Shown in pieces: positions 22,701-28,727 of a stretch of 64,000 nucleotides of DNA (positions within the stretch are counted from its first letter, which is position 1; every line of letters starts with the position of its first letter). Position numbers and translations under genes: made by a program. The stretch is from NCBI GenBank assembly GCA_030431975.1, contig JAUIHP010000006.1, positions 1-64,000 on the forward strand, given 5' to 3'. This stretch comes from a bacterium (GTDB lineage: Bacteria; Eisenbacteria; RBG-16-71-46; CAIMUX01). Below the pieces are notes generated by a model. It did no database searches, had not been told where the DNA came from, and was given only the letters and a program-made list of their open reading frames with translations.

Positions 22701-23070
22701 CTCCGAGCAAACGAATGTCGTATTGCTCGAGAACGCCGGCATCCGCCAGCTCCAACGTCGCGTTGATCGCTGTTTGGCCGCCGACCGTCGGAAGGATCGC
22801 GTCGGGCCTTTCCGCTTCGATGACACGGCGCAACGCGTCGAGTGTCAGCGGCTCGATATAGGTGGCGTGATTGAGTTCGGATCCGGAGAAAAGCTCCGGG
22901 TCGGTCATGATCGTAGCGGGGTTCGAGTTGACGAGGATGACCCGGTAGCCTTCTTTGGAAAGCGCCTTCACGGCCTGGGTACCGGAGTAGTCGAACTCGC
23001 AGGCCTGCCCGATGACGATGGGTCCGGAACCGAGGACGAGGATCGAGTGGATCGACGTGTTCTTAGGCAT
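19708..23070 (-). CDS. carB: Carbamoyl-phosphate synthase large subunit
   Basis: About 1120 residues, slightly longer than E. coli CarB (1073). Two ATP-grasp halves are evident: first [20 protein letters not shown] ... [19 protein letters not shown], second [20 protein letters not shown] ... [18 protein letters not shown]-terminal methylglyoxal-synthase-like allosteric domain follows ([28 protein letters not shown]). It makes carbamoyl phosphate for pyrimidine and arginine synthesis with CarA. The ATG at 23070 overlaps the carA stop codon (ATGCCTAA), so it is chosen over the upstream start at 23103. Confidence 0.96.
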
Positions 23071-24244
23071 GGCTCGTCCCTCCGACAAGAGAAGGCGTTT
23101 CACCGAGCATGTCCGCGAAACGATCGAAGAGTGAGTTGCACTCGTGTGGACCCGGGGACGCTTCGGGATGGAACTGCACGCTGATGAGCTTTCTCTTTTT
23201 GGACATCAGGCCCTGCACCGTTCCGTCGTTGAGGTTGATGTGGCCGACCTCGACATCGCTGGGAATCGTGTCCGGATCGATTGCGTAGTTGTGATTCTGC
23301 GACGTGATGGACACCGCCCCGGTGGTGACGTCCTGTACCGGGTGGTTGGCGCCGTGGTGTCCGAAAGAGAGCTTGAGGGTACGGCCGCCCAAGGCCATCC
23401 CGACCAGCTGGTGTCCCAAACAGATGGCCAAGGTCGGGTAGCGGTCGATGACCTCCCGAACGAACGGAACCAGGGCCTCGAGGGCGGCCGGATCCCCCGG
23501 ACCATTCGAAAGGACGACTCCGTCCGGCTGCGCTTTTGCCAACTGCGCGATCGTGGTGTTCGCGGGGAGCACCTCGACGCGGCAACCGCGTCGCGCCAGC
23601 TCGCGCAGGATGTTCTCTTTCACCCCGAAGTCGAGAGCCGCGACCCTCGGCGCCCGGTCCGACCCCGGAACGACGCGTTTCGCGGGATCACCTTCCGTGA
23701 ACACATAGGGATTCTTCGTCGTCACCGAAGAAACGGCGGGAACGTCGCACATGCGCGGCACCTGCCGGGCGCGGCGGATGGCCTCTTCAGGATCGCCGAC
23801 TTCCGTCGTGAACCAACCCCGAAGTGCTCCCTCTTCCCGTAGGACCAAAGTCAGTTCGCGCGTATCGACGCCGGTGAGTCCGAATCGTCCGTGTCGCGCA
23901 AGAAACTCGGGAAGACTCTCGGACATCTTGGCGTGGGATGGATTCGTGCACACGGCGCGAGTCACGGCCCCCACCGCACGGGGTGAGGCAGACTCGGAGT
24001 CATCGGCATGCACGCCGTAGTTCCCGATCTGAGTCGCCGTGAAGACGACGATCTGTCCGAAGTAGGAAGGGTCGGTCAGGACTTCCTGGTAGCCGGTCAT
24101 AGCCGTATTGAAGACGACTTCGCCTCCGCAAGGCCGGGCATCGGCAAAAGATTGTCCTGTGAAGATTCGACCGTTCTCGAGAGCGAGCAAGGCGTCCAAA
24201 TGGGAGGGTCCTCTTGACCGAGGGAGCTGATTCGCTCCGCTCAA
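23063..24244 (-). CDS. carA: Carbamoyl-phosphate synthase small subunit
   Basis: A 393-residue glutamine amidotransferase subunit. The N-terminal CarA domain contains [20 protein letters not shown]. The class I amidotransferase domain has the nucleophile Cys in [11 protein letters not shown] and His/Glu in [10 protein letters not shown]. It releases ammonia from glutamine and channels it to CarB. The gene heads a carAB operon behind a well-formed sigma-70-type promoter at 24260-24288. Confidence 0.95.
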
Positions 24245-24386: not shown

Positions 24387-25199
24387 CTACCTTAGGAAAG
24401 TCTCCGACTTCGGATCGAAGAGCAGTTTGATCTCGCCCCATGAAGACTGGATGACCGGAAGCAGCGGCTCGATATCTCCCTGCGCTGCATTGATGACGTA
24501 GCGGTTACGACCGGGATCATCCGATTCGCGCTGAACCCAGGCGACGACCGACAGGTTCGTCGGGTCCCAGCCCTCCAGGACGGGAAAGCTCTTCGAAACG
24601 ATTTGAGACTCGCCGGCCGCACTCACCGTCAGGCTCTCATCGGAAAGGACCTCCCGCACGGTCCGATCAAAGTTGCGGTTCCGGTAGGTCAGCCCGTCCT
24701 CGACGATGACCATTCGAATGACGCACTCCTCGGGAAACTCGACGTTCTCCGCCAGATTCACCGTCACGTCGATCTGAGCCCGCTGCTCCCGACTGTTGAG
24801 CTGGGCGTCGACCTTGACCGAAAGCGGAACGAGTTGCTTGGACGCCTCATTGATCTTGGCCAGAAACCGCTGGTAGTAGTTCCCGCCGCCGCGAATGAAC
24901 GACTCTCCGTCGAACCAGACCGTCGGCCAGCCGTTGGCGTTGTAGTAGTGCCGGCGAGCCACGGAACCGGGAACGTCAAACTGTCCCGTCACATGGAAGT
25001 CGGCATAAACGACCGTTTCGGTTCCCAGCTCATCCTGAATCCGTCCCAGGGCCGCACGGGCCTCAGGGCAGAACGGTCATTCAGAGTAGCCGAACTTCTC
25101 TGCGAAGACGGTTCGAGGGACACCCTCTGCCCACGCGGTAGCCGCGAAGAGAAGTGGAAGGATCATCGAGAGCATCAGGGCTCGGGCTGTGCGTACCAA
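24387..25199 (-). CDS. Omp28-like secreted thiol-redox protein, candidate selenoprotein (TGA read as Sec)
   Basis: Reading TGA 25079-25077 as Sec gives a 270-residue protein. A TTG start with GGAGG 5 nt upstream leads into a clean signal peptide (MLSMILPLLFAATAWA). Then follow VFAEKFGYSE-U-PFCPEA, so Sec is residue 41 in a UxxC motif where Omp28/thioredoxin-like proteins have CxxC. Next come YNANGWPTVWFDGE (the cis-Pro region of this fold), a beta domain and the tail PVIQSSWGEIKLLF. A bSECIS-like hairpin directly follows the TGA. Without recoding, the product would be a 40-residue stub, and the downstream frame alone (from 24992) would lack both signal and redox motif. A TGC-to-TGA mutation is the alternative. 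Confidence 0.7.
25041..25079 (-). promoter_or_regulatory. Putative bacterial SECIS element
   Basis: After TGA (25079-25077), the 36 nt to 25041 can fold: CCGT with ACGG, CCC with GGG, GGCC with GGCC, closing a CGTGC loop. There are 18 nt between the TGA and the apical loop, and a G is in the second loop position. This agrees with the published bSECIS description (small loop with an early G, 16-37 nt from the UGA). The fold was done by eye; energy was not calculated. Confidence 0.55.
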
Positions 25200-25469
25200 G
25201 GTCGCCTCCATAGGAGCGTGGTTGGGCGCCGGGTCGCCGGATCGGCGGGATCTCGGGATCGCCGGACCGCAAACAGGGTGGGATGACCGCCCTCTTTGAG
25301 AGGTACCGCCGGCTCCACCAAGTGTGACCAGTCCTAATTATCGGTTCGGTCGGTGGGCTCTCGATGGATGCGTTAAGTGGACGGACAGGGGGCGGGCGGG
25401 GTCAGACGAGAGTTTGGATGGCGCACCTTGGGTGTGTGCGCAAGGACCGGTTTCCCCTGTACCCACGGG
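25200..25469. other. Intergenic region with no gene
   Basis: Contains the upstream region of the candidate selenoprotein gene. I see a GGAGG before TTG 25199 and a short CCTCT/AGAGG hairpin near 25291-25303. No convincing promoter pair and no coding frame are apparent. Confidence 0.5.

Positions 25470-25532: not shown

Positions 25533-28727
<3,195 letters not shown>

Follow-up and report, generated by a model that had tools for sequence, protein, structure and literature searches.

A predicted exported selenoprotein of the Omp28-like thioredoxin kind in an Eisenbacteria genome

In the 64,000-nucleotide stretch of bacterial DNA analysed here (the window), a minus-strand gene for an apparently secreted thiol protein is interrupted by a TGA, which raises the question of whether this codon ends the protein or is read as selenocysteine (Sec). 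The initial annotation had proposed the second reading. All our results, taken together, make it very probable that the gene encodes an exported selenoprotein, in which UGA45 is decoded as Sec via SelB and a downstream hairpin, and which acts as a thiol/selenol-disulfide oxidoreductase.

The reading frame and the predicted protein

Between 24387 and 25211 the minus-strand frame holds a sole in-frame stop before its TAG. This is one TGA, found in the context FGYSE-U-PFC with GWPTVWFDG further on, and 229 codons remain open past it, up to the TAG. The assignment of the TGA to the first residue of a UxxC motif and the choice of a TTG start with a good Shine-Dalgarno sequence, both made in the initial annotation, agree with what is seen on this strand. 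The protein would be 270 aa long from the TTG and 274 aa long from an in-frame ATG (24387-25211), the TTG being the likelier start, as judged from a GGAGG that lies 5 nt upstream of the TTG only.

24387..25199, minus strand: predicted Omp28-like selenoprotein coding sequence, TTG start, TGA read as Sec, stop TAG
25209-25211, minus strand: alternative ATG start, in frame, without Shine-Dalgarno
25205..25209, minus strand: Shine-Dalgarno GGAGG, 5 nt before the TTG start (TTG at 25197-25199)
25128..25199, minus strand: probable Sec-pathway signal peptide, hydrophobic LMLSMILPLLFAATAWA, inferred from sequence
25077..25079, minus strand: predicted UGA Sec codon, U45 of the ATG form, first position of UxxC
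25068..25070, minus strand: putative resolving cysteine C48 of UxxC, invariant in alignment A2

The upstream neighbour on the same strand (25533-28727) is a 1064-aa ORF which we take to resemble a malate synthase/isocitrate lyase fusion, and the downstream one (23063-24244, same strand) is presumably a carA-like gene. No obvious functional link was seen between these flanking genes and the selenoprotein gene, nor any synteny between the window locus and the G006 relative, and no partner or conserved neighbour was found among the loci compared.

The AlphaFold2 model of the read-through protein (alignment A2; mean pLDDT 87.9) consists of a thioredoxin domain, then a beta-sandwich.

24840..25115, minus strand: thioredoxin-fold domain, residues 33-124 (AlphaFold model; Foldseek to HBP35)
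24924..24926, minus strand: Pro96 of GWPTVWF, thioredoxin cis-proline position (invariant column; cis state inferred)
24462..24830, minus strand: Omp28 beta-sandwich domain (Pfam PF11551; Foldseek to 2r2c)

The features of a thioredoxin-fold oxidoreductase are found together: a thioredoxin fold, (U/C)xxC at the start of its first helix (U45xxC48 in the model) and a proline at the cis-Pro position (Pro96, before the next strand). Columns 45 (U/C), 48 and 96 are invariant in the homologue alignment. The Pfam Omp28 profile PF11551 matches residues 88-247 with E = 6.8e-12 and 46 bits, over its gathering score of 34.9, as is also the case for the known Omp28 lipoproteins (PF11551, NF033782, PDB 2r2c); the window protein differs from these in scoring 38 against 150 bits with NF033782 and in showing no lipobox.

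The best Foldseek match in the PDB, which is also the best sequence-profile match, is HBP35 of Porphyromonas gingivalis (PDB 5y1a; E 1.1e-12). HBP35, a thioredoxin of the cell surface, is likewise exported and combines a thioredoxin domain with an Omp28-like beta-domain, but it carries Cys instead of Sec and is only 19% identical to the window protein, which has no counterpart of the C-terminal domain by which HBP35 is proposed to be attached to the surface. As recombinant HBP35 has a thioredoxin activity for which both active-site cysteines are needed (PMC2907840), the fold match makes extracytoplasmic thiol/selenol-disulfide exchange the likely function of the window protein. Pfam and NCBIfam profiles find no C-terminal sorting domain of T9SS cargo in it; such a domain is present in 18 of 31 homologues, and the search for a T9SS in the window genome by the PorP family stayed below the cut-off.

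We infer export, redox activity and a role of the beta-domain as follows. SelB with Sec-tRNA(Sec) would insert selenocysteine at UGA45, with the hairpin immediately after it as guide, and the product, which is probably exported, would be taken out of the cytoplasm by its signal peptide. Sec45 would then attack, or form a mixed (seleno)disulfide, to be resolved by Cys48, with Pro96 beside the active site; the Omp28 beta-sandwich would probably be an anchor or a binding platform. Such a platform could also be the main purpose of the protein, Sec being inserted into what is chiefly a binding or structural surface protein (for heme or adhesion). The large Omp28 beta-domain and the binding of hemin by HBP35 (PMC2907840) speak for this reading. 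We nevertheless consider it unlikely, in view of the UxxC at the thioredoxin helix start and the invariant Pro96. Sec is, moreover, rarely kept in proteins without a redox use.

Sec/Cys exchange and the decoding genes

An open frame alone is little proof of decoding; chance is ruled out by dozens of independent genomes in which homology extends to either side of the TGA. A single-sequence search of genome contigs found no relatives; the read-through protein, used as query against 146 genomes, had matches in 20 of them. Set 1 of the homologues comes from the loci so retrieved and from named genomes that match a TGA-specific DNA pattern (20 of the 25 matches are real members), aligned in six frames by HMM. 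At the U45 column, its 70 distinct genes have TGA (45), TGC (24) or TGT (1) and nothing else, and the 18 genes of set 2, from other genomes, have TGA in nine cases and Cys in nine. Overall, 54 of the 88 homologues have TGA at this column and all the other 34 have a Cys codon. Cys in place of the TGA, which the initial annotation had suggested looking for, is thus common, and the scattered stops of which it had warned were not seen in relatives. The named carriers of homologues include Candidatus Eisenbacteria, Effluviviacota and Delongbacteria.

The window genome (an assembly of 6.19 Mb, 97% complete) contains all four Sec decoding genes named for checking at the outset. selA is matched by its profile with 493.7 bits; selB lies in a 731-aa ORF over the cut-off, its GTPase part scoring 344 bits, or 366.5 when the C-terminal part is included; selC is recognised by ARAGORN as a tRNA-SeC with TCA anticodon and by the Rfam tRNA-Sec model with 70.7 bits; and selD scores 373 bits, its own active site reading CAG-TGA-ASK. 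Across the homologue-bearing genomes, selA is over the cut-off in 14 of the 16 with the TGA form and absent in three of the four with Cys only; the two TGA-form exceptions are 68% and 75% complete, and in one of them a fragment of selA is seen where a contig ends.

On the tree, the window gene and its paralogue on contig C1 belong to a group of six that all have Sec (SH-aLRT 97), and at least seven Sec/Cys changes are counted, three of them forced by starred branches. The window genome has four TGA genes of the Omp28-like type, the window gene included. The three further ones (G000 C1:35057-35719, C10:436832-437506 and C17:268332-268598) encode proteins of 365-703 aa whose C-terminal domains are FlgD_ig and, in part, T9SS-like. 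In many relatives, a Sec-form gene adjoins a Cys-form (CxxC) Omp28-like gene, making a recurring Sec/Cys pair (L071, L072, L073, L078, L082, L084, L091; G112:C2; G115:C1); the window copy has no such adjoining partner.

The hairpin and the reading of the UGA

A bSECIS-like hairpin had been proposed to follow the TGA. Its loop at 18 nt is recovered by folding and the hairpin is supported at the level of the family, while its significance in the single gene is weak.

25040..25072, minus strand: bSECIS-like hairpin (RNA folding), apical loop CGUGC at 25054-25058, 18 nt after the UGA

With a folding energy of -16.9 kcal/mol, the window hairpin alone is not unusual against dinucleotide shuffles (z = -1.06), and 10 of 60 synonymous permutations are as good. 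Significance is reached only across the family, not for the window gene alone. The published bSECIS rules find a hairpin in 45 of 45 TGA genes, but GC-rich sequence makes hairpins easy. Stability was judged by permuting synonymous codons within each gene and pooling by Stouffer's method: z is -6.3 in TGA genes versus -1.0 in Cys genes for set 1, and -3.3 versus +0.9 for set 2, values that overstate significance because related sequences are treated as independent. The loop starts 17-20 nt after the UGA in 40 of 45 TGA genes versus 5 of 25 Cys genes.

The codons tell the same genes apart. An arginine stands at position +7 in 36 of the 45 TGA genes of set 1, and its codon is always CGG, CGT or AGG (36/36, versus 35/58 for nearby Arg codons; p = 3e-6); the codon is CGC in the two Cys genes with Arg at +7. 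The protein sequence is apparently shaped here by an RNA signal encoded in the same stretch. The Cys genes of G007 and G008 (L026, L047), which are nested among Sec genes, retain the +7 Arg as CGC, as expected after a loss of Sec to Cys. RNAalifold gives no consensus for all 45 TGA genes together, because the loop register differs between groups; a consensus is found when the two main groups are taken apart, and the stem of the CGT group is conserved, some pairs having changes on both sides. The Arg+7 signature does not hold in set 2, whose TGA genes place the hairpin differently, with an AGUU loop 34 nt after the UGA in seven of nine. The AGUU-loop members (L098, L107, L111, L112, L113, L115, L117) are distant and from other families.

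The selD gene of the window genome (L018, G000:C52:182266-183189), itself a selenoprotein gene (CAGUASK), has its hairpin loop 20 nt after the UGA, in agreement with the local pattern; the selD genes of other genomes do not show this loop position to be genome-wide.

The Sec decoding genes, the UGA/Cys exchange, the RNA-structure signal and the fold are all shown computationally, and from them the window gene is predicted to be a selenoprotein, as first proposed. That the TGA is a genuine stop, followed by a decaying pseudogene or by a separately started ORF, appears very improbable. A 201-aa ORF does begin after the TGA (GTG at 24992) and might be called by annotation pipelines, but the domain is conserved across the TGA, which occupies one catalytic column, otherwise Cys, in 54 genes of unrelated genomes; the Sec machinery is present, and the RNA-structure signal is limited to TGA genes. 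A sequencing or assembly error hiding a TGC or TGT is more improbable still, since the same TGA is present in independent MAGs from several phyla as well as in four paralogues within the window genome, and the Arg+7 codon and the hairpin differ between TGA and Cys genes. General reassignment of UGA (code 4/25-like), or near-cognate readthrough, is just as hard to sustain: carB in the window ends in TGA, so that UGA is a stop elsewhere in the genome, a tRNA-Sec with anticodon UCA is present, and the homologues have Cys, not Trp or Gly. When selenium is lacking, the Sec pathway could in principle supply Cys instead of Sec at the UGA.

Known relatives and the extent of the family

The Sec-containing Omp28-like protein had been thought new, a view that has to be narrowed. 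Its kind was first found in ocean data, as 74 Sec sequences named GOS_C (Zhang and Gladyshev 2008, PMC2398784), and is listed as 'Hypothetical protein GOS_C, NF045500, UxxC' in a 2026 catalogue (PMC13188914). Among the papers searched, none links selenoproteins to Omp28 or Eisenbacteria by name. No NCBIfam model matches the window protein better than NF045500, 'Omp28-related selenoprotein', which also matches 31 of the 31 homologues scanned; a TGA-encoded Sec in UxxC, the thioredoxin-like fold and the Omp28 relationship are common to the window protein and this family. The window protein nevertheless scores only 60.8 bits against a cut-off of 200, covering model positions 39-257 of 377. Homologues whose scores are given individually reach 34-73 bits (best E among the 31, 3.7e-20), and the 200-bit cut-off is reached in none of 385 genomes. 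By its sequence, then, the window protein is a divergent relative of the known Omp28-like selenoproteins, in a widespread, so far uncalled set.

As these proteins score below the sole Sec-Omp28 model, standard annotation would probably split the window protein and dozens alike into a fragment or a false ORF. We favour, with moderate confidence, a wider reading in which exported thioredoxins of the Omp28/HBP35 type make up a large radiation of selenoproteins, mostly uncalled and, in Candidatus Eisenbacteria, multi-copy, with several Sec/Cys exchanges and two hairpin positions (about 18-20 nt for the Eisenbacteria type; an AGUU loop at 34 nt for the others). Such a family would add to the uses of selenium known from outside the cytoplasm and offer a natural series of Sec/Cys switches within one fold.

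The longer Sec paralogues of the same genome or order (e.g. L051, L056, L064) have the same N-terminal Sec-Trx-Omp28 domain; they differ in reaching 660-700 aa with a C-terminal FlgD_ig/T9SS-type domain, whereas nothing follows the Omp28 domain in the window form. As to the model itself, NF045500 positions about 255-377 have numerous matches to short repeats within long proteins encoded by other genomes and look like a repeat region, not an Omp28 domain.
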